From assembly GCF_042242105.1 (NCBI RefSeq), contig NC_092014.1, positions 2,826,874 through 2,890,873 of the forward strand: a DNA stretch of 64,000 nucleotides, read 5' to 3'. This DNA comes from Pempheris klunzingeri (Eukaryota; Chordata; Actinopteri; Acropomatiformes; Pempheridae). Of this stretch, positions 1 to 30,600 are shown one piece after another. Position 1 is the first letter of the stretch. Each line of letters opens with the position of its first letter. Both the position numbers and the translations under genes were made by a program. Below the pieces are notes generated by a model. The model was given only the letters and a program-made list of their open reading frames with translations, ran no database searches and was not told the DNA's origin.

Positions 1-21
1 GATGTGCTGATGTTTACTTAC

Positions 22-9000: not shown

Positions 9001-11126
9001 CAGGAAGTGAGAGACAAGACTAGGCACAAGTGAACACAGACAACTTAACACACACGACGAGACATGACACCTGTAAAGGTTATAAAGCCGAATATCCCTA
9101 ACTTTTTGTGAGTAGTGTATGTCTTTATACAACAGTAATCACACAAACACATGCTGGTTGATCATTATCAACATGTGTGGTGTGTTTAAATCTCCTGTGT
9201 TGGTGTGTCTCCATCAGGTTGTGTTCATCAGTACCTGTGACAGTCAGAGTTGTTCCAGGTAAACTGCTCCTCCAGTCAAAGCTTCCTGCTGTGAATTTGA
9301 AGTGATACTGGGCTGAGTCTCTCTCTGTCAGCTCAGTGATTCTCAGAGTGGAGTGTCCTCCCTCTGTTTCAAGGACCTGAACACGACCTGCATACTGGGG
9401 GTCTTCACTAAGGTCCTCAGGCTGTGACTGATAAACCCACTGATGACTACGTTCAGGACTGAACCAGAGTTTTGATGTGATCGATCTATAACTGCTGTAT
9501 GTGGAAGAAATGTCCACTGAAGAGCCTTTGGGGGCACAGATGCTTCTGTTAGTGTAAGTCACTCTGTTGCAGCTTTGTCCACCGACACCTGAAAGATAAA
9601 ACAATTATATGATCATTTTTAAACCAGAGCTGCTGAGGAGTCACAGTCGGAGCCTCCATATTTAATATCCATGTAGTCAGAAGGCTCCACTAGATGGTGT
9701 CATGTTAGTAGAAGACTGTGGAGAACTCACACATTGGAGGAGAGTGGGAATCCTCATGTCCTCTCACAGCACAGACATAGCTGTCTTCAGGATAGACGTG
9801 GTCTGAATAATAACTTGTTTTTCTCTCAGTTTTCTGTCCATTCTTGTACCAGACGTAGGAAAGAAGATTACCAGGTAGACGACAATCACTGTGGCATGAA
9901 AGATCGGTCCAGGATTTAAAAGATGTCTCCTTCACCTGCAGAGCTGGATTTGTGAATCTCATTTTAAACAAAACTGTCAACACACATGGAAATAAACACA
10001 TGATACATTCATGTTGTTGTTTTCTGGATGTTGAACATTTGGAAAGTAGTAAAATATGAATGAAAATGTTACCTGTGACTGACAAAGTGACTCCAGGTGA
10101 ACCAGTAAACCTTCCACCTGGTTGGTTTGTTATGAACCTGAACTTGTACTCAGCTGAGTCGCTCTCTCTCAGGTCTGTGATTCTCAGAGTGCAGCTGTTC
10201 ATATCACAGTGATTCTGCACACGACCTGCGTACTCTGCATCTGTGCTCAGATCCACTGGTTCACTTTCTCTCATTTTAGTAAACCACAATGTTTTCTCAA
10301 CTACAGTAACACGGTCATTTATTCTGGACGGGTATCTGTAGGTGCTGTGTAGCTCCACTGATGATCCTTTCAGGGCACAGATGTTAGTAGAGGTGAAGGT
10401 CACTCCCCAGCCATTCTGACTCTGTATCACTGTAACACAGAGCACAGCAGAGAGCTCAATTACTTCCTCTTCTTAGGGAGGAACGGAGGCAGAAAGAAGT
10501 GTGTGTGCATGTTTCTTTGGTCATCCTCTCTCCACTTTGTGGTCAAGTGTCTGCTGTGTGAGTGTAAAAATAAAAAGCAGAACACTGAGGATTGTGAACC
10601 TCTCCTAGTTTTAACTATCATATCAAGATGTGGCCCCCACACACAATGAATGGACTGGTGGGTTGGTTCGGACATAGAAACTGAGCTGAAGTAGTTACAC
10701 TGATGAAGAAAAGTTCAAACACTTTAGTTTACTCTGGTTGTTCATCGTTTACAGAGACGTCCTACATTTAAATTCAGCCCTGAATGTTTGTCACAACACA
10801 AGAATATATATAGAATAATGGAGCAGCAAAACCTTCTGTGATCAATGTCCTGATCAATAAAACACAATCACTGACTGAAACTTCTATATTTTACAAACAC
10901 TGAGGGATGAACTTTCTTTTAGAAACCCAAACTTTAAATCTAATGAATAAGCTTGGTCTACTTTTGTGTTGATGCCAAGATATAGCTGTGAATAACTTTA
11001 AAATTAATAACCAGAATAACAGTAATTATCAGTAATAAGGTCAGTGTAGTATTAAAAATGTAAATAAGCTCTACCTGACACAGAGAGAAGGAAGACAAGT
11101 CCGCCTGCTGCTACTTTGAACCCCAT
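22..11126 (-). CDS. Gene A: CD22/Siglec-like Ig receptor, 3' part outside window
   Basis: Predicted cell-surface receptor of the fish CD22-like (sialoadhesin-like) family. Exons in coding order: 11075-11126 signal peptide (MGFKVAAGG...), 10073-10429 D1, 9731-9943 D2, 9235-9588 D3, 490-717 D4, 22-270 D5. D6, membrane segment and tail would lie beyond base 1, so the tail type is unknown. All seen exons are open with GT/AG borders and phase 1 joins. Two oddities set A apart. The B-strand cysteine of D1 is Ser (HSTY instead of RCTY/HCTY) while its E-strand partner is kept, and D2 is one codon longer than in the other copies. The D3-D4 intron also differs from the short intron (about 220 bp) of the others and holds an 8.3-kb nest of mobile elements. 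The gene may still be spliced, but long insertions could lower expression. CD22-like identity is from family pattern; ligand unknown. Confidence 0.8.
1177..1800 (-). pseudogene. Tc1 transposase N-terminal remnant
   Basis: The minus strand between 1386 and 1177 reads a Tc1-family DNA-binding region, including the characteristic [14 protein letters not shown] and NRMLNAT motifs. Upstream, 1800-1735 gives the start-like stretch ([12 protein letters not shown] type) known from this family, separated by the 1376-1720 insert. An in-frame stop follows the NAT motif and the DD34E catalytic region is missing. A normal family member is about 340 residues; this is roughly the first quarter to third, so it cannot make active transposase. 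Confidence 0.7.
1376..1720 (+). mobile_element. tRNA-SINE-like retroposon with 14-bp target duplication
   Basis: A common teleost repeat type: it begins with a GTGGTGCTGTGGTTAGCAC head resembling a tRNA A-box, carries the conserved middle (GTGGAGTTTGTATGTTCTCC) and ends in a TGGATGGATGG simple-repeat tail. The 14-bp sequence GACTTCCTGTTTGA occurs directly on both sides (1362-1375 and 1721-1734), as expected for target-primed insertion. It splits the Tc1 transposase remnant, so it is younger than the Tc1 copy. The tRNA origin is inferred from the head motif; the exact family name is not known to me. Confidence 0.8.
1850..3846 (+). mobile_element. Old, broken Ty3/Gypsy-type retroelement fragment
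   Basis: Plus-strand pieces resemble, in order, a gag-like stretch (about 1865-2080), reverse transcriptase (about 2300-2640, with the YLDDIL box), RNase H (about 2950-3140) and integrase-like sequence (about 3230-3560). No LTRs were found and the coding parts are heavily decayed, with many breaks, so this is a fossil. It lies inside the Tc1 element and was itself entered by the younger Gypsy element at 3847. Exact ends are uncertain because both borders run into other repeats. Confidence 0.75.
3847..4268 (-). repeat. 3' LTR of the young Gypsy element
   Basis: About 422 bp, matching 8652-9069 almost base for base apart from short indels. On the minus strand it starts TGTCATG. It is the copy downstream of pol. 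Confidence 0.9.
4280..7560 (-). other. pol region of the young Gypsy element, ending in a chromodomain
   Basis: In coding order from right to left: aspartic-protease-like region (about 7480-7250), reverse transcriptase with the YLDDILIF box (about 6900-6420), RNase H (about 6100-5780), integrase with HHCC zinc region and DDE core (about 5560-4840), and a chromodomain-like end (about 4540-4300; [17 protein letters not shown]). The chromodomain is the family trait thought to guide integration to heterochromatin. The region is spread over frames and is treated as a fossil. Confidence 0.8.
7571..8634 (-). other. gag region of the young Gypsy element
   Basis: Begins with MDPAEVSSF at 8634. It shows a proline-rich stretch, a capsid-like retrotransposon gag region, and near its end a CCHC zinc knuckle ([14 protein letters not shown]). 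Not a host gene. Confidence 0.8.
8652..9069 (-). repeat. 5' LTR of the young Gypsy element
   Basis: About 418 bp, near-identical partner of 3847-4268. Gag begins just inside it at 8634, leaving a very short leader where the primer binding site should be; I could not assign the tRNA. Confidence 0.9.
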
Positions 11127-13783
11127 GACTGGTCCTCTCCTCGTTCCGCTGAGACTAAACTAACTAAAAATATGTGACATGTATAAAGGAAGTCTCGTTT
11201 GGAGAAGTTTGAGATCTGCAAGTACAATTTGCTGTTTGTCAATTCACTGTGGTCAAACATGCCTCCTTAAAAGGCAACTTCTCTTCCGCTAATCATGTTC
11301 TTCAATCATCATGTTGTTCGTCACAGAAAAGTGTGTAAAAGAGAGAGATGGTGTGACTTTGGCCACTGCCAGGAAGACAACTATCATCTTCCTCCTCATG
11401 TTTGTATCATAGCAATGAGCATTTATTGGCCTGTGAAGACGCAGGATGTGAAGAACTTAAAAGTGCTCCTAGCAGAGCAGCATTTGTTGAACAGAAACGT
11501 TTATGGTGCATCTACTTCCTACGACACGGTGACAGAAAATGCAGCGATATCCCCTCCTGTGGAGCGCACCAACAGTGACAAAGCATAGGGTGGAGTCCAG
11601 GATGACGCCGAGGGTTCGTGCTTCAGGGGACGGAGAGACGGAGCAGTCGTCCACATTGGAGGAGAAGATCTCCAACCTTCTGGAGCAGTGCCCTGGGAGC
11701 CACGACCAAGAGCTCTGCTTTTTCTCTGTTGAGTTTGAGGAGGTTAGAGGTCATCCAAGTTTTTATTTCACAGAGGCAGTTGACGAGGGACTGTGGAGGG
11801 AGCTGAGTGGATGGTGAGGTGTTGAGGTACAGCTGAGTGTCATCAGCATAGCAGTGGAACTGGAGACCATGGCGGCAGATTATCAGGCCAAGGGGGAGCA
11901 TGTAAATGATGAAGAGGAGGGGACCAAGGACGGAGCCTTGTGGCACCCCATGGTTAAATGGAGCAGGCTGGGAAGTGGATCCATCAATGGTAATAAACTG
12001 TTAATTAAGACAAATGAAGAGAGTTTTCCAGAGATGTGATTGTCCTCGTTTTGAAACTGACTTGGTGTCTCCGGCTTACAACACTTAAAAGTTACAGATG
12101 TTTTTTAAAAATCACATTTCTTATTTGCTGAAACTACATTAATAACTATAGGGGACGACTGACTCCGTACGTTGTGACATCCGACCCTGTGATGGGGTCC
12201 AGAGTCACAATGAAAGGGAGCCCATTTTAACTCAAGGCTGAACTTACAGCAACATTCAACATAGGTAGAAAAAACTGTAAATATCACCTGCTTTCATGCT
12301 AAATCTGCCAACACAACACATGGATGTGATATACGAGGTCTAATAATAATAATAATGTCCATGACACGAGCTAACGAACCACTGCAACACATTTAGACAT
12401 TACAGAAAAATAAAAGTCAGCAGCTTTGTCACGCAGTTCTCTTCATCGTCCCTGATACTCATGTTTTATTGTATTTCGGACTCTCTGCATGAGTCCGTTT
12501 CCCTTTGTTTGGGTTCTTTGCACTGTAAGCTGTTGTTGTCAATGCAGGAATAACAACTTTTTCTGCAGGATTTTCCCGAATCAGACTTTCAGCAGCATCC
12601 GAAGGAACGTGCCCGAGCATCTGTGTTTGTAGAGCAGCCAATAAGAACGCTCTCTCTCTGTCTGAGAGGACCTTTGATTGGCTGAAGTCAAAGTGTAGAT
12701 TTTCTAAAGTCCAAACGCAGAGCCGAGAGGAGCGGCAGAAGTCTTGTTTTCTCTCAGACCACTTGGATTAAAACATGCTGACAAGTTATTATGAGATTGT
12801 TAAAGAATGACACCAGAAATAAACTGCCTGCCCCAGTTTTAAACAGCTTTTTGGTAAATTTCATTATGAAATTTGGATATTCGCTAATTTTATCAATATA
12901 TTCTTGCGTGTACAACCTAAAAAGATTAGTTACCTCAGTTTCATCCACAACTGTTGCTGTCCTTGTGATGTGCTTGTAGATTTAGTCAGCTGAAGAAGTG
13001 TGAGTGTGTTTTTGTGTTTCTTTTCCATTTCTGTCCCATCAAACAGACTGTTAACTCAAAAACTAGTTTAAGTTTCATCAATGATTCCTGATAAATAAAC
13101 ACTTTACTGTGATTAATACACATGAACACAGTTTGTCTGCACACTTTCACACCTTCACACCCTCTGTGGCAGTGAGAGGGAACTGAAATGATGTTCAAAC
13201 TGCAGAGTTGTTGTGGAAGCTGGATGTTTATTTCAAGCAGCCACCGCAACACACTGAAAATGTGACAGCTAGCAAAGCGCGGTAGAGCTGGACTTCTGTT
13301 TGACTGCAGTGTGTTTACATACACAATGTACATGCTGTGACATATTGTGCTTCCAGCTGTTTGTTTTGAACACACGTTACTGACTTTCTCTGCCAGGACA
13401 CATGTGATGTGATTGGGCAGTCAGTATTTCCCAACAGCAGTTTATTGCATTAACATTTAAAAGAAGATTTTGCACACCAAGGTAAATCCTGGACATCTCT
13501 CGTCTACCTGCACAGGTAAAAATCAAGCTTGCATTCTCCCCAAAGCTGCTGCTGCTGAAAACTGGAAATAAAAACTGTTGCAGTTGAAGGTAAATGAATC
13601 CACCTCTCCCACATCCTCCACAGCCTTCAGTGCTGTTCTCCTCTGTTTCCATGTGAGTCCCCTCTGCTTTGACTGCATCTGAGCAAAATCCAAAAGATTT
13701 GGGGAGTTATATCTCAGAAATGGAGCTAGGAAGTTGTTTGGAGTTAGTTTTGTTCATGCAGCAGACTCAGAGCTGACTGACCT
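11127..13783. other. Spacer between genes A and B
   Basis: The right flank of gene A holds its likely promoter (about 11127-11230), with an Ets/PU.1-like core AAAGGAAGTC on the plus strand near 11190. Then come a 170-bp segment (about 11389-11562) present in only some spacers, a LINE reverse-transcriptase fragment, a short ATA/ATT microsatellite near 12340, two oppositely facing CCAAT boxes (12638-12642 and 12677-12681), and the likely 3' UTR of gene B with a minus-strand AATAAA at 13441-13446. Short ORFs here recur in sister spacers but resemble no known protein. Confidence 0.6.
11580..12043 (-). mobile_element. LINE reverse-transcriptase fragment, spacer A-B
   Basis: The minus strand encodes the core of a non-LTR reverse transcriptase: the HGVPQGSVLGPLLF block, then the catalytic box CYADDTQLYL and the downstream thumb-like stretch to ARTLGVILDSTLCF. 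Only about 150 residues of a protein of about 1000 remain, so it is a dead fragment. The motifs fit the L2/CR1/Rex group best, but the clade is uncertain. Confidence 0.8.
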
Positions 13784-16700
13784 TCACACCAGGTCTTCCT
13801 GCTCCTCTGTGTCTTCTGTCCGTTCTGTGGTGATCCTCTTCACGTCTGGGACGTTGATATAATCAGGATCATCCTCCAACTCATGGGGAGAGAAAACAAG
13901 ATGAGAGTCAAAGGCTTCATACAAGGAATTTAGATTTTACATTCAAACGTTCTCAGATGTGATGAAAGTAAATCTGCTTCCTGAAATTGCTCTTTGGTAC
14001 AAAAGGCGTCCACAGGAAATGAGGAATGAGGAAAATGTGTGAAGGTAAATGAACATGGGTGGTTTGTCTTAAGAAAGAGTTTACTAATCAAGTTATATGT
14101 AAATTGTCTTTATGACCTCATATTATTAACAAAATAAGAGCCTCTGAATTCATAACAAATCATGACTTGTTGGTAGATTAAGTTCTGTCCCTGTGGCCCA
14201 GTATCTCTCTCACCTCCACAGTCTCAGCGGGTTCATTCGGTTCAGTGGTGGAGAGCAGAATTTCTTCCTTCCTAAAACAACCAAATAAAACAATACAAAG
14301 TTGAATTGCAAACTTTGAAACTATGAAAGTAAATATTCAGAATAAAAGAGCAGTGATGCTGCTGATTATTTTTCATGTCTTTACCTCATCCAGAGACACA
14401 GAAGAAGCAGAGGAATCAGCATCACGACCACCAGACTCAACCTGATGATGTTTGACACTGATAGTTTCTCTAGAAATGGAGATAAGCAGTTATTAGATAT
14501 ACAGTAGTGGAGCTCACTAGTAGATCTGAGTCATGAATCAGTTTGTTAGGAAAAAACAGCACCATGGAAAAATGTACCTGCTAAAACATTCAGATATAAG
14601 GCAGACTTTTGAAATCCTATTTTGTTCCGGGCTTCACAGTAATAATTCCCACTTTGATTAGCTCTGAAGTCAGTGATGGTGAAGATCTGTCCTGATGCTG
14701 TTGGTGAGTCTTCGTCCTCCTTGTACCAGGTGTAGGTAGCTGCTGGGTTAGCATCACTGCTGCAGGTCAGATTGACTGAGCTGCCCTCCACTATCTCAGC
14801 AGAGGGACTCACTGACACAGAGGGAAGTCTTGGAGCATCTGGAGGACAATATGCACAGAGAGATGAGTATTCTGTAGCTGTCCTGAAAGCTATGACAGTA
14901 AATAAATCATCATTTGAATCCAACTGATAACTGATGTGCTGATGTTTACTTACACTGGACATCTATGAGCAGAGACTCAGAGCGCTGATCCTCAGACGTG
15001 CAGTAGTAGATCCCTCTGTCCTCAGAGCGGATGGAGGTGAAGTGATGAATACCTGCTGATCCTACAGGCAGTACCTGGTCCTCCTTGTACCAGGTGTAGG
15101 TAGCTGCTGGGTTAGCTTCACTGCTGCAGGTCAGATTGACTGAGCTGCCCTCCACTACCTCAGCAGAGGGACTCACTGACACAGAGGGAAGCTTTGACGG
15201 ATCTGCATATCGATGAAGGTTGGTTAGTGTAAATTCATGGTTTGTTGCTACGGTGACACATACTGCATTTAAGTAAATACTTAGAGAAACATAGGAGGTG
15301 GTTTTGTGACCAGACTGATGGTTTGAATTCCCAGAACAGCAGTAAAACTGCCTCACAGACATTCTCAGGACTTTGTCATGTTATGTGAGGTGAAAGTAAA
15401 AATACAGTGAAGTAAACTCACACACTGAAGGGGAGCGATAATCCTCACGTCCTTTAAAAGCACAAGAGATCTTGTCTCCAGGATAAAAGTTGTCTTTATA
15501 AGAAGAAGTTTCCTCCGTCATGATTCTCTGTCCATTCTTGAACCAGACGAAGGAAAGACGACCAGCTGGACTGCAGCTGCTGTGACACTTCAGCTCTGCC
15601 TCGGTATAAAGCTGATGATGTGTTGTTGTGGTCACCTGCACCTGCAGAGCTGGATATGAAAAGGAGTGAAACAGTGAAACAGTAATGTCATAGATCACTA
15701 AATACTCAGCTGCAAACACAAAGACACACTCAGTCTAAACTGAGGAGATAAGTAACGGGACTGATGGATGATTCAACGTTTGTATCAAGCAGCATCTTCT
15801 CCACTTGTCATCTGCTTGTTTAAATCTCCTGTGTTGGTGTGTCTCCATCAGGTTGTGTTCATCAGTACCTGTGACAGTCAGAGTTGTTCCAGGTAAACTG
15901 CTCCTCCAGTCAAAGCTTCCTGCTGTGAATTTGAAGTGATACTGGGCTGAGTCTCTCTCTGTCAGCTCAGTGATTCTCAGAGTGGAGCGTCCTCCCTCTG
16001 TTTCAAGGACCTGAACACGACCTGCATACTGGGGGTCTTCACTTAGGTCCTCAGGCTGTGACTGATAAACCCACTGATGACTACGTTCAGACCTGAACCA
16101 GAGTTTTGATGTGATAGATCCAGAACTGCTGTATGTGGAAGAAATGTCCACTGAAGAGCCTTTGGGGGCACAGATGCTTCTGTGAGTGTAAGTCACTCTG
16201 TTGCAGCTTTGTCCACCGACACCTGAAAGATAAAACAATTATATGAACATTTTTAAACCAGAGCTGCTGAGGAGTCACAGTCGGAGCCTCCATATTTAAT
16301 ATCCATGTAGTCAGAAGGCTCCACTAGATGGTGACATGTTAGTAGAAGACTGTGGAGAACTCACACACTGGAGGAGAGTGGGAATCCTCATGTCCTTCCA
16401 CAGCACAGACATAGCTGTCTCCAGGACTAATGTAGTCTGAGTAAGAAGATGTTTTTCTCTCAGTTTTCTGTCCATTCTTGTACCAGACGTAGGAAGGATT
16501 ATCAGGTAGACGACAATCACTGTGGCATGAAAGAGCAGTCGAGAAAAAAGAGGATGTCTCCTTCACCTGCAGAGCTGGATCTGTGAAGAAGAAACAGGAA
16601 TCTCAAAACTGTCGACACACATGGAAATAAACACATGATACATTCATGTTGTTGTTTTCTGGATGTTGAACATTTGGAAATTAGTAAAATATGAATGAAA

Positions 16701-17743
16701 ATGTTACCTGTGACTGACAAAGTGACTCCAGGTGAACCAGTAAACTTTCCACCTGGTTGGTTTGTTATGAACCTGAACTTGTACTCAGCTGAGTCGCTCT
16801 CTCTCAGGTCTGTGATTCTCAGAGTGCAGCTGTTCATATCACAGTGATTCTGCACACGACCTGCGTACTCTGCATCTGTGCTCAGATCCACTGGTTCAAT
16901 TCCTCTCATTTTAGTAAACCACAATGTTTTCTCAACTACAACAACACGGCCATTCATTGTGGACGGGTGTATGTAGGTGCAGCGTAGCTCCACTGATGAT
17001 CCTTTCAGGGCACAGATGTTAGTAGAGGTGAAGGTCACTCCCCAGTCATTCTGACTCTGTATCACTGTAACACAGAGCACAGCAGAGAGCTCAATTACTT
17101 CCTCTTCTTAGGGAGGAAAGGAGGCAGAAAGAAGTGTGTGTGTGTCTTTCTCTTTCAAGTGTCAAGTGTCTGTTGTGTGAGTGTGGAAATAAAAAGCAGA
17201 ACACTGAGGAGAGTGAACGTCTCCTAGTTTTAACTATCATATCAAGACGTGGCCCCCACACACAATGAATGGACTGGTGGGTTGGTTCGGACATAGAAAC
17301 TGAGCTGAAGTAGTTACACTGATGAAGAAAAGTTCAAAGACTTTAGTTTACTCTGGTTGTTCATCGTCTACAGAGACGTCCTACATTTAAATTCAGCCCT
17401 GAATGTTTGTCACAATAATAATATATATAGAATAATGGAGCAGCAAAACCTTCTGTGATCAATGTCCTGATCAATAAAACACAATCACTGACTGAAACTT
17501 CTATATTTTGCAAACACTGAGGGATGAACTTTCTTTTAGAAACCCAAACTTTGAATCTAATGAATAAGCTTGGTCTACTTTTGTGTTCATGCCAAGATAT
17601 AGCTGTGAATAACTTTAAAATTAATAACCAGAATAACAGTAATTATCAGTAATAAGGTCAGTGTAGTATTAAAAATGTAAATAAGCTCTACCTGACACAG
17701 AGAGAAGGAAGACAAGTCCGCCTGCTGCTACTTTGAACCCCAT
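13784..17743 (-). CDS. Gene B: CD22/Siglec-like Ig receptor, YINV-tail type
   Basis: Predicted type I membrane receptor of 649 residues. Exons: 17692-17743, 16708-17064, 16365-16574, 15869-16222, 15422-15649, 14954-15202, 14578-14838, 14385-14469, 14214-14271, 13784-13879; all have GT/AG borders and matching phases. Signal peptide 1-17, D1 18-136, D2 137-206, D3 207-324, D4 325-400, D5 401-483, D6 484-570, membrane segment about 578-598, then a 50-residue acidic tail. D1 has Siglec-like features: R115 in YKFRF, C46/C97 pair, W25. Arg580 sits at the outer edge of the membrane segment. The tail has one tyrosine, Y625 in DPDYINV, a Grb2-SH2 type site (pYxN) like the YENV motif of mammalian CD22; there is no canonical ITIM. 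A minus-strand AATAAA at 13441-13446 is a likely poly(A) signal. Function as a leukocyte receptor is inferred from family. Confidence 0.85.
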
Positions 17744-17850
17744 GACTGGTCCTCTCCTCGTTCCGCTGAGACTAAACTAACTAAAAATATGTGACATGTA
17801 TAAAGGAAGTCTCGTTTGGAGAAGTTTGAGATCTGCAAGTACAATTTACT
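17744..17850 (-). promoter_or_regulatory. Conserved proximal promoter region of gene B
   Basis: The 100 bp or so before the start codon are nearly identical before all eight genes (equivalents start at 11127, 24238, 30834, 37351, 47853, 54356 and 61405). They contain an Ets/PU.1-like core (plus strand AAAGGAAGTC), fitting a leukocyte gene, and AT-rich TATTTTTAG on the minus strand. No clear TATA box in the right place. Transcription start not defined. Confidence 0.35.
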
Positions 17851-18023
17851 GTTTGTCAATTCACTGTGGTCAAACATGCCTCCTTAAAAGGCAACTTTCC
17901 TTCCGCTAATCATGTTCTTCAATCATCATGTTGCTCGTCACAGAAAAGTGTGTGAAAGAGAGAGATGGTGTGACTTTGGCCACTGCCAGGAAGACAACTA
18001 TCATCTTCCACCACACCAACAGT

Positions 18024-18485
18024 GACAAAGCATAGGGTGGAGTCCAGGATGACGCTGAGGGTTCGTGCTTCAGGGGATGGAGAGACGGAGCAGTCGTCCA
18101 CATGGAGGAGAAGATCTCCAACCTTCTGGAGCAGTGCCCTGGGAGCCACGACCAAGAGCTCCGCTTTTTCTCTGTTGAGTTTGAGGAGGTTAGAGGTCAT
18201 CCAAGTTTTTATTTCACAGAGGCAGTTGACGAGGGACTGTGGAGGGAGCTGAGTGGATGGTGAGGTGTTGAGGTACAGCTGACTGTCATCAGCATAGCAG
18301 TGGAACTGGAGACCATGGCGGCAGATTATCAGGCCAAGGGAGAGCATGTAAATGATGAAGAGGAGGGGACCAAGGACAGAGCCTTGTGGCACCCCATGGT
18401 TAACTGGGGCAGGCTGGGAAGTGGATCCATCAATGGTAATAAACTGTTAATTAAGACAAATGAAGAGAGTTTTCCAGAGATGTGA
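18024..18485 (-). mobile_element. LINE reverse-transcriptase fragment, spacer B-C
   Basis: Same fragment as in spacer A-B (GVPQGSVLGPLLF block and CYADDSQLYL box), here with Ser for Thr after YADD. Its ends lie at the same places relative to the genes, so it was copied with the array and did not insert afresh. Confidence 0.8.
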
Positions 18486-20220
18486 TCGTCCTCATTTTGA
18501 AACTGACTTGGTGTCTCCAGCTTACAACACTTAAAAGTTACAGATGTTTTTTAAAAATCACATTTTTTATTTGCTGAAACTACATTAATAACTATAGGGG
18601 ACGACTGACTCCGTACGTTGTGACATCCGACCCTGTGATGGGGTCCAGAGTCACAATGAAAGGGAGCCCATTTTAACTCAAGGCTGAACTTACAGCAACA
18701 TTCAACATAGGTAGAAAAAACTGTAAATATCATCTGCTTTCATGCTAAATCTGCCAACACAACACAAGGATGTGATATACGAGGTCTAATAATAATAATA
18801 ACGTCCATGACAAGCTAATGAACCACTGCAACACATTTAGACATTACAGAATAATAAAAGTCAGCAGCTTTGTCACGCAGTTCTCTTCATCGTCCCTGAT
18901 ACTCATGTTTTATTGTATTTCAGACTCTCTGCATGAGTCCGTTTCCCTTTGTTTGGGTTCTTTGCACTGTAAGCTGTTGTTGTCAATGCAGGAATAACAA
19001 CTTTTTCTGCAGGATTTTCCTGAATCAGACTTTCAGCAGCATCGTGCCCGAGCATCTGTGTTTGTAGAGCAGCCAATAAGAACGCTCTCTCTCTCTGAGA
19101 GGACCTGTGATTGGCTGAAGTCAAAGGGTAGATTTTCTAAAGTCCAAACGCAGAGCCGAGAGGAGCGGCAGAAGTCTTGTTTTCTCTCAGACCACTTGGA
19201 TTAAAACATGCTGACTAGTTATTATGAGATTGTTAAAGAATGACACCAGAAATAAACTGCCTGCCCCAGTTTTAAACAGCTTTTAGGTAAATTTCATTAT
19301 GAAATTTGGATATTCGCTAATTTTATCAATATATTTTTGCGTGTACAACCTAAAAAGATTAGTTACCTCGGTTTCATGCACAACTGTTGCTGTCCTTGTG
19401 ATGTGCTTGTAGATTTAGTCAGCTGAAGAAGTGTGTGTGTGTTTTTGTGTTTCTTTTCCATTTCTGTCCCATCAAACAGACTGTTAACTCAAAAACTAGT
19501 TTAAGTTTCATCAATGATTCCTGATAAATAAACACTTTACTGTGATTAATACACATGAACACAGTTTGTCTGCACACTTTCACACCTTCACACCCTCTGT
19601 GGCAGTGAGAGGGAACTGAAATGATGTTCAAACTGCAGAGCTGTTGTGGAAGCTGGATGTTTATTTCAAGCAGCCACTGCAACACACTGAAAATGTGACA
19701 GCTAGCAAAGCGCGGTAGAGCTGGACTTCTGTTTGACTGCAGTGTGTTTACATACACAATGTACATGCTGTGACATATTGTGCTTCCAGCTGTTTGTTTT
19801 GAACACACGTTACTGACTTTCTCTGCCAGGACACATGTGATGTGATTGGGCAGTCAGTATTTCCCAACAGCAGTTTATTGCATTAACATTTAAAAGAAGA
19901 TTTCACACACCAAGGTAAATCCTGGACATCTCTCGTCTACCTGCACAGGTAAAAATCAAGCTTGCATTCTCCCCAAAGCTGCTGCTGCTGAAAACTGGAA
20001 ATAAAAACTGTTGCAGTTGAAGGTAAATGAATCCACCTCTCCCACATCCTCCACAGCCTTCAGTGCTGTTCTCCTCTGTTTCCATGCACGTGAGTCCCCT
20101 CTGCTTTGACTGCATCTGAGCAAAATCCAAAAGATTTGGGGAGTTATATCTCAGAAATGGAGCTAGGAAGTTGTTTGGAGTTAGTTTTGTTCATGCAGCA
20201 GACTCAGAGCTGACTGACCT

Positions 20221-23200
20221 TCACACCAGGTCTTCCTGCTCCTCTGTGTCTTCTGTCCGTTCTGTGGTGATCCTCTTCACGTCTGGGACGTTGATATAAT
20301 CAGGATCATCCTCCAACTCATGGGGAGAGAAAACAAGATGAGAGTCAAAGGCTTCATACAAGGAATTTAGATTTTACATTCAAACTTTCTCAGATGTGAT
20401 GAAAGTAAATCTGCTTCCTGAAATTGCTCTTTGGTACAAAAGGCGTCCACAGGAAATGAGGAATGAGGAAAACGTGTGAAAGTAAATGAACATGGGTGGT
20501 TTGTCTTAAGAAAGAGTTTACTAATCAAGTTATATGTAAATTGTCTTTATGACCTCATATTATTAACAAAATAAGAGCCTCTGAATTCATAACAAATCAT
20601 GACTTGTTGGTAGATTAAGTTCTGTCCCTGTGGCCCAGTATCTCTCTCACCTCCACAGTCTCAGCGGGTTCATTCGGTTCAGTGGTGGAGAGCAGAATTT
20701 CTTTCTTCCTAAAACAACCAAATAAAACAATACAAAGTTGAATTGCAAACTTTGAAACTATGAAAGTAAATATTCAGAATAAAAGAGCAGTGATGCTGCT
20801 GATTATTTTTCATGTCTTTACCTCATCCAGAGACACAGAAGAAGCAGAGGAATCAGCATCACGACCACCAGACTCAACCTGATGATGTTTGACACTGATA
20901 GTTTCTCTAGAAATGGAGATAAGCAGTTATTAGATATACAGTAGTGGAGCTCACTAGTAGATCTGAGTCATGAATCAGTTTGTTAGGAAAAAACAGCACC
21001 ATGGAAAAATGTACCTGCTAAAACATTCAGATATAAGGCAGACTTTTGAAATCCTATTTTGTTCCGGGCTTCACAGTAATAATTCCCACTTTGATTAGCT
21101 CTGAAGTCAGTGATGGTGAAGATCTGTCCTGATGCTGTTGGTGAGTCTTCGTCCTCCTTGTACCAGGTGTAGGTAGCTGCTGGGTTAGCATCACTGCTGC
21201 AGGTCAGATTGACTGAGCTGCCCTCCACTATCTCAGCAGAGGGACTCACTGACACAGAGGGAAGTCTTGGAGCATCTGGAGGACAATATGCACAGAGAGA
21301 TGAGTATTCTGTAGCTGTCCTGAAAGCTATGACAGTAAATAAATCATCATTTGAATCCAACTGATAACTGATGTGCTGATGTTTACTTACACTGGACATC
21401 TATGAGCAGAGACTCAGAGCGCTGATCCTCAGACGTGCAGTAGTAGATCCCTCTGTCCTCAGAGCGGATGGAGGTGAAGTGATGAATACCTGCTGATCCT
21501 ACAGGCAGTACCTGGTCTTCCTTGTACCAGGTGTAGGTAGCTGCTGGGTTAGCTTCACTGCTGCAGGTCAGATTGACTGAGCTGCCCTCCACTATCTCAG
21601 CAGAGGGACTCACTGACACAGAGGGAAGTCTTGGAGCATCTGCATATCGATGAAGGTTGGTTAGTGTAAATTCATGGTTTGTTGCTACGGTGACACATAC
21701 TGCATTTAAGTAAATACTTAGAGAAACATAGGAGGTGGTTTTGTGACCAGACTGATGGTTTGAATTCCCAGAACAGCAGTAAAACTGCCTCACAGACATT
21801 CTCAGGACTTTGTCATGTTATGTGAGGTGAAAGTAAAAATACAGTGAAGTAAACTCACACACTGAAGGGGAGCGATAATCCTCACGTCCTTTAAAAGCAC
21901 AAGAGATCTTGTCTCCAGGATAAAAGTTGTCTTTATAAGAAGAAGTTTCCTCCGTCATGATTCTCTGTCCATTCTTGAACCAGACGAAGGAAAGACGACC
22001 AGCTGGACTGCAGCTGCTGTGACACTTCAGCTCTGCCTCGGTATAAAGCTGATGATGTGTTGTTGTGGTCACCTGCACCTGCAGAGCTGGATATGAAAAG
22101 GAGTGAAACAGTGAAACAGTAATGTCATAGATCACTAAATACTCAGCTGCAAACACAAAGCCACACTCAGTCTAAACTGAGGAGATAAGTAACGGGACTG
22201 ATGGATGATTCAACGTTTGTATCAAGCAGCATCTTCTCCACTTGTCATCTGCTTGTTTAAATCTCCTGTGTTGGTGTGTCTCCATCAGGTTGTGTTCATC
22301 AGTACCTGTGACAGTCAGAGTTGTTCCAGGTAAACTGCTCCTCCAGTCAAAGCTTCCTGCTGTGAATTTGAAGTGATACTGGGCTGAGTCTCTCTCTGTC
22401 AGCTCAGTGATTCTCAGAGTGGAGCGTCCTCCCTCTGTTTCAAGGACCTGAACACGACCTGCATACTGGGGGTCTTCACTTAGGTCCTCAGGCTGTGACT
22501 GATAAACCCACTGACGACTACGTTCAGACCTGAACCAGAGTTTTGATGTGATAGATCCAGAACTGCTGTATGTGGAAGAAATGTCCACTGAAGAGCCTTT
22601 GGGGGCACAGATGCTTCTGTGAGTGTAAGTCACTCTGTTGCAGCTTTGTCCACCGACACCTGAAAGATAAAACAATTATATGAACATTTTTAAACCAGAG
22701 CTGCTGAGGAGTCACAGTCGGAGCCTCCATATTTAATATCCATGTAGTCAGAAGGCTCCACTAGATGGTGACATGTTAGTAGAAGACTGTGGAGAACTCA
22801 CACACTGGAGGAGAGTGGGAATCCTCATGTCCTTCCACAGCACAGACATAGCTGTCTCCAGGACTGATGTAGCCTGAGTAAGAATATGTTTTTCTCTCAG
22901 TTTTCTGTCCATTCTTGTACCAGACGTAGGAAGGATTATCAGGTAGACGACAATCACTGTGGCATGAAAGAGCAGTCGAGAAAAAAGAGGATGTGTCCTT
23001 CACCTGCAGAGCTGGATCTGTGAAGAAGAAACAGGAATCTCAAAACTGTCGACACACATGGAAATAAACACATGATACATTCATGTTGTTGTTTTCTGGA
23101 TGTTGAACATTTGGAAATTAGTAAAATATGAATGAAAATGTTACCTGTGACTGTCAAAGTGACTCCAGGTGAACCAAAAAACTTTCCACCTGGTTGGTTT

Positions 23201-24237
23201 GTTATGAACCTGAACTTGTACTCAGCTGAGTCGCTCTCTCTCAGGTCTGTGATTCTCAGAGTGCAGCTGTTCATATCACAGTGATTCTGCACACGACCTG
23301 CGTACTCTGCATCTGTGCTCGGATCCACTGGTTCACTTCCTCCCATTTTAGTAAACCAGAATGTTTTCTGAACTACAGTAACACGGCCATTCATTCTGGA
23401 CGGGTGTCTGTAGGTGCAGCGTAGCTCCACTGATGATCCTTTCAGGGCACAGATGTTAGTAGAGGTGTAGGTCACTCCCCAGTCATTCTGACCCTGTATC
23501 ACTGTAACACAGAGCACAGCAGAGAGCTCAATTACTTCCTCTTCTTAGGGAGGAAAGGAGGCAGAAAGAAGTGTGTGTGTGTCTTTCTCTTTTTTTCATC
23601 CTCTCTCCACTTTGTGGTCAAGTGCCTGCTGTGTGAGTATAAAAATAAAAAGCAGAACACTGAGGAGAGTGAACGTCTCCTAGTTTTAACTATCATATCA
23701 AGACGTGGCCCCCACACACAATGAATGGACTGGTGGGTTGGTTCGGACATAGAAACTGAGCTGAAGTAGTTACACTGATGAAGAAAAGTTCAAAGACTTT
23801 AGTTTACTCTGGTTGTTCATCGTCTACAGAGACGTTCTATATTTAAATTCAGCCCTGAATGTTTGTCACAATAATAATATATATAGAATAATGGAGCAGC
23901 AAAACCTTCTGTGATCAATGTCCTGATCAATAAAACACAATCACTGACTGAAACTTCTATATTTTACAAACACTGAGGGATGAACTTTCTTTTAGAAAGA
24001 GAAATAAGCTTTGCATGAAAATAAATATACACACTTTCCAAACTTTAAATCTAATGAATAAGCTTGATCTACTTTTGTGTTCATGCCAAGATATAGCTGT
24101 GAATAACTTTAAAAATAATAACCAGAATAACAGTAATTATCAGTAATAAGGTCAGTGTAGTATTAAAAATGTAAATAAGCTCTACCTGACACAGAGAGAA
24201 GGAAGACAAGTCCGCCTGCTGCTACTTTGAACCCCAT
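20221..24237 (-). CDS. Gene C: CD22/Siglec-like Ig receptor, YINV-tail type
   Basis: Predicted 649-residue receptor with the gene B plan. Exons: 24186-24237, 23145-23501, 22802-23011, 22306-22659, 21859-22086, 21391-21639, 21015-21275, 20822-20906, 20651-20708, 20221-20316. D1 is the variant with QGQNDWGVTY near its start, VDPSTDAEY in the middle and PGGKFFGSPG in the G strand; it is identical at the protein level to D1 of gene G 30 kb away, although D2 of the two genes differs. D5 begins YAPRLPS like D6, not YPSKLPS as in B. The tail matches B with one Glu to Lys change (RKKEIL) and the YINV tyrosine. Intron 1 is longer than in B by about 40 bp with AAATAAGCTTTGCATG, also seen in E, F and G. 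Confidence 0.85.
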
Positions 24238-26341
24238 GACTGGTCCTCTCCTCGCTCCGCTGAGACTAAACTAACTAAAAATATGTGACATGTATAAAGG
24301 AAGTCTCGTTTGGAGAAGTTTGAGATCTGCAAGTACAATTTACTGTTTGTCAATTCACTGTGGTCAAACATGCCTCCTTAAAAGGCAACTTTTCTAATTT
24401 TTTATTTTTTTTTCTAATCATGTTCCTCAATCATCATGTTGCTCGTCACAGAAAAGTGTGTAAAAGAGAGAGATGGTGTGACTTTGGCCACTGTCAGGAA
24501 GACAACTATCATCTTCCTCCTCATGTTTGTATCATAGCAATGAGCATTTATTGGCCTGTGAAGACGCAGGATGTGAAGAACTTAAAAGTGCTCCTAGCAG
24601 AGCAGCATTTGTTGAACAGAAACGTTTATGGTGCATCTACTTCCTACGACACGGTGACAGAAAATGCAGCGATATCCCCTCCTGTGGAGAGCACCAACAG
24701 TGTCAAAGCATAGGGTGGAGTCCAGGATGACGCTGAGGGTTCGTGCTTCAGGGGACGGAGAGACGGAGCAGTCGTCCACATGGAGGAGAAGATCTCCAAC
24801 CTTCTGGAGCAGTGCCCTGGGAGCCACGACCAAGAGCTCTGCTTTTTTGGCTGTTGAATTTGAGGAGGTTAGAGGTCATCCAAGTTTTTATTTCACAGAG
24901 GCAGTTGACGAGGGACTGTGGAGGGAGCTGAGTGGATGGTGAGGTGTTGAGGTACAGCTGAGTGTCATCAGCATAGCAGTGGAACTGGAGACCATGGCGG
25001 CAGATTACCAGGCCAAGGGGGAGCATGTAAATGATGAAGAGGAGGGGACCAAGGACGGAGCCTTGTGGCACCCCATGGTTAAATGGAGCAGGCTGGGAAG
25101 TGGATCCATCAATGGTAATAAACTGTTAATTAAGACAAATGAAGAGAGTTTTCCAGAGATGTGATCGTCCTCATTTTGAAACTGACTTGGTGTCTCCGGC
25201 TTACAACACTTAAAAGTTACAGATGTTTTTTAAAAATCACATTTCTTATTTGCTGAAACTACATTAATAACTATAGGGGACGACTGACTCCGTACGTTGT
25301 GACATCCGACCCTGTGATGGGGTCCAGAGTCACAATGAAAGGGAGCCCATTTTAACTCAAGGCTGAACTTACAGCAACATTCAACATAGGTAGAAAAAAC
25401 TGTAAATATCACCTGCTTTCATGCTAAATCTGCCAACACAACACATGGATGTGATATACGAGGTCTAATAATAATAATAACGTCCATGACACGAGCTAAC
25501 GAACCACTGCAACACATTTAGACATTACAGAATAATCAAAGTCAGCAGCTTTGTCACGCAGTTCTCTTCATCGTCCCCGATACTCATGTTTTATTGTATT
25601 TCAGACTCTCTGCATGAGTCCGTTTCCCTTTGTTTGGGTTCTTTGCACTGTAAGCTGTTGTTGTCAATGCAGGAATAACAACTTTTTCTGCAGGATTTTC
25701 CTGAATCAGACTTTCAGCAGCATCGTGCCCGAGCATCTGTGTTTGTAGAGCAGCCAATAAGAACGCTCTCTCTCTCTGAGAGGACCTGTGATTGGCCGAA
25801 GTCAAAGTGTAAATTTTCTAAAGTCCAAACGCAGAGCCGAGAGGAGCGGCAGAAGTCTTGTTTTCTCTCAGACCACTTGGATTAAAACATGCTGACAAGT
25901 TATTATGAGATTGTTAAAGAATGACACCAGAAATAAACTGCCTGCCCCAGTTTTAAACAGCTTTTTGGACTTCTGTTTGACTGCAGTGTGTTTACATACA
26001 CAATGTACATGCTGTGACATATTGTGCTTCCAGCTGTTTGTTTTGAACACACGTTACTGACTTTCTCTGCCAGGACACATGTGATGTGATTGGGCAGTCA
26101 GTATTTCCCAACAGCAGTTTATTGCATTAACATTTAAGACAAGATTTCACACACCAAGGTAAATCCTGGACATCTGCATTAGATCAAATCACATGGAACA
26201 GTATCAGGCACACCCAGCGCAAGCTAATGCACTCTAATACCACAATAAAATACTGCTGCCCTGCTGCTGCATGAGCGATGCACTGAAGTCTGTCAGCTGA
26301 GAAAAGGATCATGAAGAGATGATGCATGTGCAGACTACACA
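24238..26341. other. Spacer between genes C and D
   Basis: Shortest spacer of the array. It has the promoter of C, the 170-bp segment (about 24514-24690), the LINE fragment and the paired CCAAT boxes. At about 25970 it jumps across about 449 bp that the other spacers keep, then resumes at GACTTCTGTTTGAC. Left of gene D the sequence switches at about 26176 to the ITIM-type 3' cassette. A minus-strand AATAAA at 26118-26123 is the likely poly(A) signal of D. Confidence 0.6.
24702..25166 (-). mobile_element. LINE reverse-transcriptase fragment, spacer C-D
   Basis: Sister copy with the GVPQGSVLGPLLF block and CYADDTQLYL box; compared with A-B it carries extra frame changes in the part after KTWMTSNLLK. 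Co-amplified with the gene unit. Confidence 0.8.
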
Positions 26342-27650
26342 TCACACTCGCTGGGTTTTGTTGACTGTGCTATAAATTGCAGGTGAATCCTCCATCGCTG
26401 CTTCACCTCTCGTTCTGTGAAGGAAACAATAAAGTCAAAAGATTTTTGTAGAGAAAACATGAATTCCAGACAGTCTAGAATAAAAAAAATACACATTTAA
26501 CAGAAGAAAATGTTGGATTTAATACTCTGGAAAGACTCTGCTGCTTACCCAGGGGCACTGCTGAAGTTGGTGGTCGCATAAACAACACTGTCCTCCTGGT
26601 TTGTGTGGGTCTGAGCTGGGCTGAAGTTGGAGCGGAGAGCTTCTGCCTGGTTCCTAGTGAATCTCACACTAGCGTACTGGAGTTCACCCATGTGCTGGCC
26701 GCATAGACAAGAGCACAATTAAACTTTCCATGTGTTTCGAGCTCCCGGCAAACAGAACTGAAGTGTAACTTGGGTTGTAAATGAGACTTTTACGCCACTG
26801 TTGCACTAAATGAACACTCAGTAAAATATCTGCAGGTGGAAAAGTGGCGAGTCTTCTACCTGATTGGCCGAACCAAAGGATTGTGATCCTGAGGTTTGAC
26901 ACCGGCCTGTTTTTGTTGTGGCAGTACGTCCTTCTCACCAGCAGAGGTCCATAATATTCAAGTTTTACTTCACATTGTCACACCATTCACAAAATGGTAT
27001 TGCTTGGCTAGATGGAGTTTAAGACAGACTATAAAAATGGTGAACCTGTCCTTTAAGCTGTCCTTTCAACCCTTCCTCCTCACCTGCTCTCTGTTGTTTC
27101 GTCTCTCACCAGAAGAACCCTCTCTTCTGACAGCAGAGCAAATTAAAAACCAAAGACACAAATAATTAAACCAAAAACAGGATGCTTTTAGTCAAGAATA
27201 CATCAACACAATGCTCAAATGTCCATATGCACACTGAGAGTTACTGCTCTTAGTTGTAGTTTCAGTGTAAGTAATGTGGATTATGTGGATTATTTAGCTG
27301 AAATGAAAGATTACAGCTAAATAAAACTATTCCAGTGAAATGTCCGTTCACTGTAATCACAGAGAAGCTGAGCTGCTCACCTCATCCATAGCAAGACACA
27401 GACGAGGATGACGAGCAGGACAACCGCAGTGATGGAAAGAGCGACTGGAAATATCCACGAACCTGGAAAACAGTCGACATGAACACTGGAAGGTTACAGG
27501 AAATCTTTGGGTCCAATGGTGGCTGATAACTGGACAAGAATAACAGTTTCTGTGTGTTTTCTAGGAGTGGGATTGGTTTAGTCTGAGGTCTCATGATGGA
27601 ACAATAATCCTGAATAAGATGCGTTCAGCTGAATGAATGACTTAACTCAC
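26176..27650 (-). other. ITIM-type 3' cassette of gene D
   Basis: Left of 26176 and right of 27650 the sequence matches the YINV-type genes; between them it does not. The stretch of about 1.47 kb holds the membrane exon, three tail exons, their introns and most of the 3' UTR. The equivalent in YINV-type gene B is 13499-14577 (1.08 kb). Exon 7 (D6) and the downstream poly(A) region are shared by both types. Confidence 0.75.
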
Positions 27651-30600
27651 CTGCCAAAACAATCAGATATAAGGCAGACTTTTTAAATCCTATTTTGTTC
27701 CGGGCTTTACAGTAATAATTCCCACTGTGTTCAGCTCTGAAGTCAGTGATGGTGAAGATCTGTCCTGATGCTGTTGGTGAGTCTTCGTCCTCCTTGTACC
27801 AGGTGTAGTTAGCTGCTGGGTTAGCATCACTGCTGCAGGTCAGATTGACTGAGCTGCCCTCCACTATCTCAGCAGAGGGACTCACTGACACAGAGGGAAG
27901 TCTTGGAGCATCTGGAGGACAATATGCACAGAGAGATGAGTATTCTGTAGCTGTCCTGAAAGCTATGACAGTAAATACATCATCATTTGAATCCAACTGA
28001 TAACTGATGTGCTGATGTTTACTTACACTGGACATCTATGAGCAGAGACTCAGAGCGCTGATCCTCAGACGTGCAGTAGTAGATCCCGCTGTCCTCAGAG
28101 CGGATGGAGGTGAAGTGATGAATACCTGCTGATCCTACAGGCAGTACCTGGTCCTCCTTGTACCAGGTGTAGGTAGCTGCTGGGTTAGCTTCACTGCTGC
28201 AGGTCAGATTGACTGAGCTGCCCTCCACTATCTCAGCAGAGGGACTCACTGACACAGAGGGAAGCTTTGACGGATCTGCATATCGATGAAGGTTGGTTAG
28301 TGTAAATTCATGGTTTGTTGCTACGGTGACACATACTGCATTTAAGTAAATACTTAGAGAAACATAGGAGGTGGTTTTGTGACCAGACTGATGGTTTGAA
28401 TTCCCAGAACAGCAGTAAAACTGCCTCACAGACATTCTCAGGACTTTGTCATGTTATGTGAGGTGAAAGTAAAAATACAGTGAAGTAAACTCACACACTG
28501 AAGGGGAGCGATAATCCTCACGTCCTTTAAAAGCACAAGAGATCTTGTCTCCAGGATAAAAGTTGTCTTTATAAGAAGAAGTTTCCTCCGTCATGTTTTT
28601 CTGTCCATTCTTGAACCAGACGAAGGAAAGACGACCAGCTGGACTGCAGCTGCTGTGACACTTCAGCTCTGCCTCGGTATAAAGCTGATGATGTGTTGTT
28701 GTGGTCTCCTGCACCTGCAGAGCTGGATATGAAAAGGAGTGAAACAGTGAAACAGTAATGTCATAGATCACTAAATCCTCAGCTGCAAACACAAAGCCAC
28801 ACTCAGTCTAAACTGAGGAGATAAGTAACGGGACTGATGGATGATTCAACGTTTGTATCAAGCAGCATCTTCTCCACTTGTCATCTGCTTGTTTAAATCT
28901 ACTGTGTTGGTGTGTCTCCATCAGGTTGTGTTCATCAGTACCTGTGACAGTCAGAGTTGTTCCAGGTAAACTGCTCCTCCAGTCAAAGCTTCCTGCTGTG
29001 AATTTGAAGTGATACTGGGCTGAGTCTCTCTCTGTCAGCTCAGTGATTCTCAGAGTGGAGCGTCCTCCCTCTGTTTCAAGGACCTGAACACGACCTGCAT
29101 ACTGGGGGTCTTCACTAAGGTCCTCAGGCTGTGACTGATAAACCCACTGATGACTACGTTCAGGACTGAACCAGAGTTTTGATGTGATAGATCCAGAACT
29201 GCTGTATGTGGAAGAAATGTTCACTGAAGAGCCTTTGAGGGCACAGATGCTTCTGTGAGTGTAAGTCACTCTGTTGCAGCTTTGTCCACCGACACCTGAA
29301 AGATAAAACAATTATATGATCATTTTTAAACCAGAGCTGCTGAGGAGTCACAGTCGGAGCCTCCATATTTAATATCCATGTAGTCAGAAGGCTCCACTAG
29401 ATGGTGTCATGTTAGTAGAAGACTGTGGAGAACTCACACACTGGAGGAGAGTGGAAATCCTCATGTCCTTCCACAGCACAGACATAGCTGTCTCCAGGAC
29501 TGATGTAGTCTGAGTAAGAAGACGTTTTACTCTCAGTTTTCTGTCCATTCTTGTACCAGACGTAGGAAGGATTATCAGGTAGACGACAATCACTGTGGCA
29601 TGAAAGAGCAGTCGAGAAAAAAGAGGATGTGTCCTTCACCTGCAGAGCTGGATCTGTGAAGAAGAAACAGGAATCTCAAAACTGTCGACACACATGGAAA
29701 TAAACACATAATACATTCATGTTGTTGTTTTCTGGATGTTGAACATTTGGAAATTAGTAAAATATGAATGAAAATGTTACCTGTGACTGACAAAGTGACT
29801 CCAGGTGAACCAGTAAACCTTCCAACTTGTTGGTTTGTTATGAACCTGAACATGTACTCAGCTGAGTCGCTCTCTCTCAGGTCTGTGATTCTCAGAGTGC
29901 AGCTCTTCTCATAACACCTGTTCTGCACACGACCTGCGTACTCTGCATCTGTGCTCAGATCCACTGGTTCACTTCCTCCCATTTTAGTAAACCAGAATGT
30001 TTTCTCAACTACAGTAACACGGCCATTCATTGTGGACGGGTGTCTGTAGGTGCAGTGTAGCTCCACTGATGATCCTTTCAGGGCACAGATGTTAGTAGAG
30101 GTGAAGGTCACTCCCCAGCCATACTGACTCTGTATCACTGTAACACAGAGCACAGCAGAGAGCTCAATTACTTCCTCTTCTTAGGGAGGAAAGGAGGCAG
30201 AAAGAAGTGTGTGTGTCTTTCTCTTTTTTTCATCCTCTCTCCACTCTGTGGTCAAGTGCCTGCTGTGTGAGTGTAAAAATAAAAAGCAGAACACTGAGGA
30301 GAGTGAACCTCTCCTAGTTTTAACTATCATATCAAGACGTGGCCCCCACACACAATGAATGGACTGGTGGGTTGGTTCGGACATAGAAACTGAGCTGAAG
30401 TAGTTACACTGATGAAGAAAAGTTCAAAGACTTTAGTTTACTCTGGTTGTTCATCGTTTACAGAGACGTCCTACATTTAAATTGAGCCCTGAATGTTTGT
30501 CACAATAATAATATATATAGAATAATGGAGCAGCAAAACCTTCTGTGATCAATGTCCTGATCAATAAAACACAATCACTGACTGAAACTTCTATATTTTA

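Follow-up and report, generated by a model that had tools for sequence, protein, structure and literature searches.

Alternative membrane-and-tail cassettes in a young tandem array of CD22/Siglec-like genes of Pempheris klunzingeri: probable paired receptors

A 64-kb stretch of the Pempheris klunzingeri genome (the window: all 64,000 nucleotides at G000:C3:2826874-2890873, within a 646-Mb genome) contains eight receptor genes, A through H, with similar ectodomains that end in one of two very different membrane-plus-tail segments, and the question raised by this locus is whether such genes are paired receptors, alike outside the cell and different in signal. We think that they probably are, and that the locus is a young tandem array of CD22/Siglec-like genes with alternative activating (Y) and inhibitory (I) membrane-plus-tail cassettes; "CD22-like" is used here for resemblance only, not orthology. 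All eight window genes are on the minus strand, arranged head to tail and transcribed in the order H to A, and they are part of a 14-gene inverted array that continues to the right with six plus-strand genes. Exons were placed by hand in gene B (the tail exons also in D) and transferred to the other genes by alignment, and the introns between placed exons begin with GT and end with AG. The features on which the comparison of the two gene types turns are the following (positions without a prefix are those of the window; D1 to D6 are immunoglobulin (Ig) exons, and ITIM stands for immunoreceptor tyrosine-based inhibitory motif):

13784..17743, minus strand: intact coding span of gene B (Y), with Ig exons D1-D6, then the tail
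17743-17692, 17064-16708, 16574-16365 and 16222-15869, minus strand: signal peptide, D1, D2 and D3 exons of gene B
15649-15422, 15202-14954 and 14838-14578, minus strand: D4, D5 and D6 exons of gene B
13499..14575, minus strand: Y cassette of gene B (intron 7, three tail exons, start of the 3' untranslated region)
14469-14385, 14271-14214 and 13879-13784, minus strand: Y cassette exons of gene B, namely the membrane exon (SNIIR), the exon after it, and the last exon (YINV, stop)
13441..13498, minus strand: shared end of the 3' untranslated region of gene B, AATAAA at 13441
26342..30833, minus strand: intact coding span of gene D (I)
26176..27648, minus strand: I cassette of gene D
27462-27381 and 27126-27084, minus strand: I cassette exons of gene D, namely the membrane exon (uncharged) and the exon after it
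26694-26549 and 26414-26342, minus strand: I cassette exons of gene D, namely the ITIM exon (LQYASV, VVYATT) and the last exon (AIYSTV, stop)

One 3' cassette (Y) is common to genes B, C, E and G and another (I) to D, F and H. This division had been proposed in an earlier note made from the letters of the window alone, and the ends measured here, 14575 in B and 27648 in D, are within two bases of those given there. In a self-comparison the alignment of gene B to D, F and H stops at 13498 and resumes at 14576, leaving the interval unmatched, and the alignment of D to B is cut at 26175 and 27649; the flanks of the block are 95.7-99.1% identical in these comparisons. B aligns continuously with C, E and G at about 98%, and the alignment of D to F and H runs through the I cassette at 98-99%. 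The cassettes are 1077 bp (Y, 13499-14575 in B) and 1473 bp (I, 26176-27648 in D) long, and differ within type by 0.5% (Y, four genes) and 0.6% (I, three genes). Homology ends on the 5' side at the splice donor of the D6 exon and on the 3' side inside the 3' untranslated region. Downstream of that point, in what the earlier note called the "shared poly(A) region", AATAAA occurs in the common flank of all seven window genes examined (B to H); it follows the stop codon by 343-347 nt in Y genes and by about 220 nt in I genes. The junctions are identical in three I and four Y genes, which rules out chance as the source of the breakpoints. The two cassettes had been called unrelated, and as DNA they give no convincing alignment (best blastn E value 0.034; Smith-Waterman score reached in 8/100 shuffles), but the membrane exons keep a weak homology that is described below. 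Genome-wide, ten copies of the Y cassette were reported, and the I cassette has three full copies and a deleted copy in gene A, all of them in the array; an additional 39-base match to the I cassette on contig C4 looks unrelated.

Repeats as alike as these are generally hard to assemble, and false tail combinations might be produced by collapsing or misjoining them, but both cassettes recur with the same breakpoints, the copies carry private inserts, deletions and substitutions, and the array sits inside a 30-Mb contig, and an assembly artefact is hardly credible. It is also very improbable that a single ectodomain is spliced to either tail by read-through into a neighbour, so that the cassette would not fix the tail of the protein. 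The head-to-tail, one-direction arrangement and the phase of the D6-to-membrane junction, which is the same in both tail types, would permit such splicing; against it, each of the seven genes B to H has its own AATAAA below its stop codon, and each of the eight window genes has its own signal-peptide exon.

The predicted proteins of the two types differ in both membrane segment and tail. Genes B, C, E and G have uninterrupted 10-exon frames of 649 residues each, whose products contain the N-x-x-R membrane segment SNIIRLSLVVVMLIPLLLLCLWMR and DYINV; the Y membrane exon, EKLSVSNIIRLSLVVVMLIPLLLLCLWMR, is followed by a 50-residue tail whose single tyrosine lies in DYINV. Genes D and H have 11-exon frames open to the stop codon, in which the I membrane exon, GSWIFPVALSITAVVLLVILVCVLLWMR, is uncharged and is followed by an 86-residue tail with LQYASV, VVYATT and AIYSTV. 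The strict ITIM pattern has one match in the I tail (LQYASV; VVYATT and AIYSTV fail it) and none in the Y tail, and YxN occurs once in the Y tail and not in the I tail. The edge arginine and single YINV reported earlier for the Y genes are thus borne out, as are the uncharged segment, the ITIM and the two further tyrosines of the I genes, with the refinements that the arginine belongs to an N-x-x-R motif and that only LQYASV is a strict ITIM. N-x-x-R (SNIIR) is at the outer end of the membrane segment in 10/10 Y copies of the array, and all ten also keep the frame of the YINV exon and DYINV itself, with varying adjacent residues.

Four zeta/FcRgamma-family matches are present in the genome, one of which, at C23:14255428, is an exon that we take to be FcRgamma-like. 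N-x-x-R is common to LILRA2, PIR-A, NKp46, GPVI, OSCAR and FcalphaR, all of which associate with FcRgamma, and in the Xenopus FcR-like (XFL) receptors it marks the TM1 type of membrane segment, the TM2 type being uncharged and followed by longer tails with tyrosine motifs (PMC2413239). The Y receptors would most likely be activating, their N-x-x-R segment pairing with the FcRgamma adaptor and its immunoreceptor tyrosine-based activation motif (ITAM), and YINV may add Grb2; the I receptors would be inhibitory, with LQYASV recruiting SHP-1/SHP-2. The Y receptors might instead do without FcRgamma and have YINV and Grb2 as their sole signalling route, so that they would modulate other receptors and not activate alone. 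The fish receptor IpLITR 1.1b has been described as having a YxN motif of the Grb2 type (PMC4810170), and the retention of DYINV in all ten Y tails amid varying neighbours would suit such a role, but N-x-x-R, the mark of FcRgamma-associating segments (PMC2413239), is retained just as fully and an FcRgamma-like exon is present in the genome, and we consider this alternative improbable.

The ectodomains above the two tails are near-identical, as the earlier note had it: among the six intact window genes the eight pairs of unlike tail type are 92.5-94.4% identical as proteins, and the seven pairs of like type 91.8-96.8%. Divergence between types is about the same as within type in most of the segments compared (gene A was left out and the insert in F excised before alignment), and is about twice as high in the 210 bases beside the cassette, the signal-peptide/promoter block and the D3-D4 intron. 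The most divergent exon is D1, which encodes the outermost V domain and presumably the one that binds ligand (5.7% within and 6.4% between types, seven genes). A 3.3-kb ectodomain block of seven genes has 90 informative sites, 53% of whose pairs fail the four-gamete test, and a PHI-type (pairwise homoplasy index) statistic below 2000/2000 permutations (custom scripts were used for this, for the pN/pS values and for the membrane-exon tests below). The closest neighbours shift along the gene: C and G have identical D1 exons, B and C have identical D6 exons, and E is close to F in D1 and to H in D6. The ancestry of the array is mosaic, by conversion or unequal exchange. The idea that the tail types are two old lineages with separate ectodomains was considered and rejected; the D/F/H split has a single fixed difference in the block and ranks 13th of the 35 3:4 splits. 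In the 3' flank the same split ranks first with two fixed differences, tied with two other splits. We note that gene D is without about 434 bp of 3' flank (around 25966; 12855-13288 in B) that is present in B, C, E, F, G and H.

When all 14 genes are compared, D1 differs by 6.0% between and 6.6% within types, and 4416/5000 label shuffles equal or exceed the observed contrast; D6 is likewise not associated with tail type (1350/5000 shuffles). The nearest D1 is that of a Y gene for 4/4 ITIM genes, which has a hand-computed chance of about 0.35 with ten Y genes and so shows mixing and not matched pairing. D1 appears to be changing rapidly under selection for amino-acid change: its ratio of nonsynonymous to synonymous differences (pN/pS) is 3.62 among eight genes and 2.83 among 14, with 47 nonsynonymous and 3 synonymous changes (p 0.001), while D2-D6 show no significant nonsynonymous excess (D2 34:6, p 0.14; D4 without gene F, D6 without gene A). 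Among the 14 genes 47/118 D1 residues are variable, so a common ligand cannot be assumed. The paired-receptor proposal of the earlier note holds as regards two tail types, N-x-x-R versus ITIM and uncharged, under homologous ectodomains, but its "same ligand face" is too strong because D1 is the most divergent exon and is rich in amino-acid changes; it should be replaced by one shared, changing pool of ligand faces, whose D1 variants are not partitioned by tail.

The Siglec character of these domains is evident in gene B, which matches Pfam Ig_CD22 with an E value of 2.2e-17 and whose D1 matches sialoadhesin 1url over nearly the whole D1 length with an E value of 7.4e-5, the best of 29 listed chains. 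In Siglecs an arginine of strand F contacts sialic acid, and the cysteine pair is an intrasheet one that joins strand B to strand E and not, as is usual, to strand F, a hallmark of the family. The arginine is found in 12/14 array genes (YKFRF of the array aligns with YNFRF of sialoadhesin), and both cysteines of the B-E pair align with those of sialoadhesin, the first present in 13/14 genes (serine in A) and the second in 14/14. A tryptophan near the N terminus (13/14 genes) and an aromatic residue at position 107 (14/14) are, with the arginine, presumably contact residues. Sialic-acid binding by most array members is plausible, and less so for genes I, J and M. The equivalent arginine of CD22, R120, is conserved to fish (PMC7226832).

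The rest of the array bears on how balanced the two types are. The remaining window genes, and two D1 exons of the right arm that are referred to below, are:

20221..24237, minus strand: gene C (Y), intact, cassette 19932-21012
33329..37350, minus strand: gene E (Y), intact, cassette 33040-34120; closest D1 is that of ITIM gene F
39902..47852, minus strand: gene F (I), cassette 39736-41208 complete, D4 exon split by a 3.4-kb insert
50343..54355, minus strand: gene G (Y), intact, cassette 50054-51130; same D1 as gene C
56906..61404, minus strand: gene H (I), intact, cassette 56740-58212
1..11126, minus strand: 5' part of gene A (signal peptide to D5), with an 8.4-kb insert at 730-9182 between D3 and D4
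19874 (C), 26118 (D), 32982 (E), 39678 (F), 49996 (G) and 56682 (H), minus strand: AATAAA matching that of gene B
G000:C3:2892188-2892544 and 2899232-2899588, plus strand: D1 exons of genes I and J, with methionine at the Siglec arginine

Gene F is probably broken by the insert in its D4 exon. This insert (42087-45539) has TTAA at both ends and similar inverted ends, and we take it to be piggyBac-like; it contains 5.5 copies of a 364-bp tandem repeat (43500-45504). D6 and a decayed I tail of gene A lie to the left of the window (G000:C3:2825713-2826779), and about 650 bp of that I cassette (positions 413-1063) are gone, and with them exon 9 and the start of the ITIM exon. The gene A insert has a pair of 424-bp direct repeats, 98% identical (3847-4268 and 8652-9069), that are long-terminal-repeat-like. 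All six right-arm genes (G000:C3:2890874-2936000), in inverted orientation, have the Y tail and intact frames; no D5 exon was found in these six genes, the D3-D4 pair is present twice in three of them, and the signal peptide of genes I and M differs from that of the others. Across the array frames are intact in 10/10 Y genes and in 2/4 I genes.

A second cluster on the same contig, at 3.34-3.41 Mb (G000:C3:3340000-3409999), has related Ig exons and six ITIM tails among the matches listed in a tail protein search (at most 24 per query and region). Its gene models are partial and its tails were read by eye; [LI].Y.S[IV] is the first motif in all six, V[ED]Y also occurs in each of them, and YSN in 5/6. 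The first gene of this cluster shares with right-arm gene L, 430 kb away, a 2.24-kb D1-to-D3 block at 97.6% identity, its D1 being 97.5% identical to that of gene L, and from its position we infer that it ends in the first ITIM tail. The ITIM tails of the second cluster are similar to the I tail and richer in motifs, so that the latter seems to be a reduced form of the local CD22-like tail. No relative of the Y tail protein was found outside the array (20/20 reported matches lie within it). The Y membrane exon resembles CD22-like membrane exons, at most 8/2000 shuffles reaching the score in 4/5 comparisons and 131/2000 in one, although four of the five peptides had been preselected as earlier matches and these counts flatter the match; between Y and I membrane exons as DNA the score is reached in 5/500 shuffles. 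We think that the Y cassette branched off long ago from the same gene end and has since diverged, and that it was not imported. A comparison with viral contigs confirmed no relative of the ITIM exon.

In gene B one tail may even have replaced the other in place. Its outer 3' flank (11302-13498) has a 170-bp spacer that is also found in the ITIM genes and is absent from C, E and G, and it has I-like states at 12/18 outer contrast sites and Y states at 4/4 sites beside the cassette. Replacement of I by Y is a possible reading, weakened in that gene B could simply have retained the spacer, because the right-arm Y gene L keeps 132 bases of it.

The array might also be an activating-only expansion, in which the functional family is Y and the I genes are disappearing remnants of an ancestral CD22-like tail, with no functional pairing within the array. 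The numbers of intact genes (10/10 Y, 2/4 I), the six Y tails of the right arm and the absence from the I tail of motifs found in the second-cluster tails point in that direction. The difference in intactness is not significant (6 in 91 by hand, about 0.07), however, D and H retain full frames, splice sites and LQYASV, and the second cluster still has ITIM tails, the D1 of its first gene being nearly that of a Y gene, and we consider this explanation unlikely.

Several observations weigh against paired receptors as we read them. In the 210 bases next to the cassette the genes group by tail (divergence of 0.95% within and 2.3% between types), and the strongest ectodomain split, B/C/G versus D/E/F/H with 15 sites, sets three of the four window Y genes apart from the ITIM genes. 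Methionine replaces the Siglec arginine in right-arm Y genes I and J, which should be without sialic-acid binding by the usual contact. The weakest part of the Y model is the acceptor of the YINV exon, GAG and not CAG; if it is unused the Y tail would be only about 30 residues long and would lack a tyrosine. LQYASV is the only strict ITIM of the I tail, whose second motif has T at +3 and which has RSN where 5/6 second-cluster tails have the tyrosine of YSN; a multi-motif CD22-type tail would have more than one canonical ITIM and a YxN. No ITAM exon was seen in a pattern search of the 3-kb FcRgamma-like locus (C23:14255428). Membrane charge alone is weak proof in fish, because catfish LITR 2.6b binds adaptors without needing it (PMC4810170). 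Finally, with two of its four genes intact, the inhibitory side may be fading, and with intact Y and I genes at ten to two the array may no longer work as a balanced pair.

Gene conversion or unequal exchange has moved ectodomain exons across tails, so that one V-domain pool serves both types. If the array does encode paired receptors, the Y receptors would deliver ITAM signals through FcRgamma once D1 meets its ligand, and the I receptors and the ITIM genes of the second cluster would deliver ITIM signals, perhaps in response to a shared ligand and in shared cells. Exchange of V blocks would supply both sides with the same variants while selection keeps altering D1, as would suit paired receptors confronted with a ligand that keeps changing, such as germs engaging inhibitory Siglecs. 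A wider proposal, which we put forward tentatively and hold to be somewhat less likely than not to be right, is that one chromosome bears three output modules on one fast-changing Siglec-type V-block pool shuffled by gene conversion, i.e. the FcRgamma-type tail (ten genes), the reduced single-ITIM tail (four genes, two intact) and the richer ITIM tails of the second cluster about 430 kb from gene L. A V variant could then go from "stop" to "go", and in gene B Y may have replaced I.

The paired principle itself is already known from several vertebrate families. Mammalian paired Siglecs have Siglec-type ectodomains in inhibitory and activating versions, as here (for example Siglec-5/14 and 11/16), the pairs being supplied by the CD33-related Siglecs. 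According to PMC7226832 fish are without CD33-related Siglecs, and the activating Siglecs 14, 15 and 16 use DAP10/DAP12, whereas the N-x-x-R of the array points to FcRgamma and its ectodomain is CD22-like. The XFL family is similar in that N-x-x-R TM1 and uncharged TM2 segments, the latter with longer tyrosine-motif tails on separate exons, are intermingled in the genome and form pairs of similar ectodomain that are called paired (PMC2413239); its ectodomains are FcR-like, whereas those of the array are CD22-like with two V domains, and its TM1 type has no tail or a very short one in the membrane exon, unlike the Y tail with its separate exons and YINV. In the Xenopus CEACAM genes, likewise, activating paralogues have exchanged sequence with inhibitory ones by conversion and the exon for the ligand-binding domain is changing fast at the amino-acid level, and their conversion is bounded by an exon with its splice sites, much as homology in the array ends at the D6 splice donor; there, however, it is limited to the N exon and the introns have diverged (PMC5112662), whereas the array genes are alike over nearly their whole length outside the cassette, and least alike in D1. 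In the catfish LITRs, also a fish family, some members have ITIMs and others have a charged membrane segment and bind FcRgamma, as predicted here, but LITR 2.6b combines a lysine in the membrane with a tail that has no canonical tyrosine motif (PMC4810170), in contrast to the outer-edge arginine and YINV of the Y genes and the Ig_CD22 match of gene B. The earlier note knew of no such pairing in fish CD22-like genes, and we likewise found no description of it, nor of the combination of CD22-like ectodomain, N-x-x-R and YINV, among the papers listed in searches of the openly licensed literature (most subscription papers lay outside these searches). If the Y genes are coupled to FcRgamma, activating Siglec-type receptors would have had an independent origin, in a CD22-like gene, and would use a different adaptor. 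The array, in which two tails are combined with many near-identical ectodomains, would permit direct tests of how exchange supplies two kinds of receptor with the same, changing binding domains.

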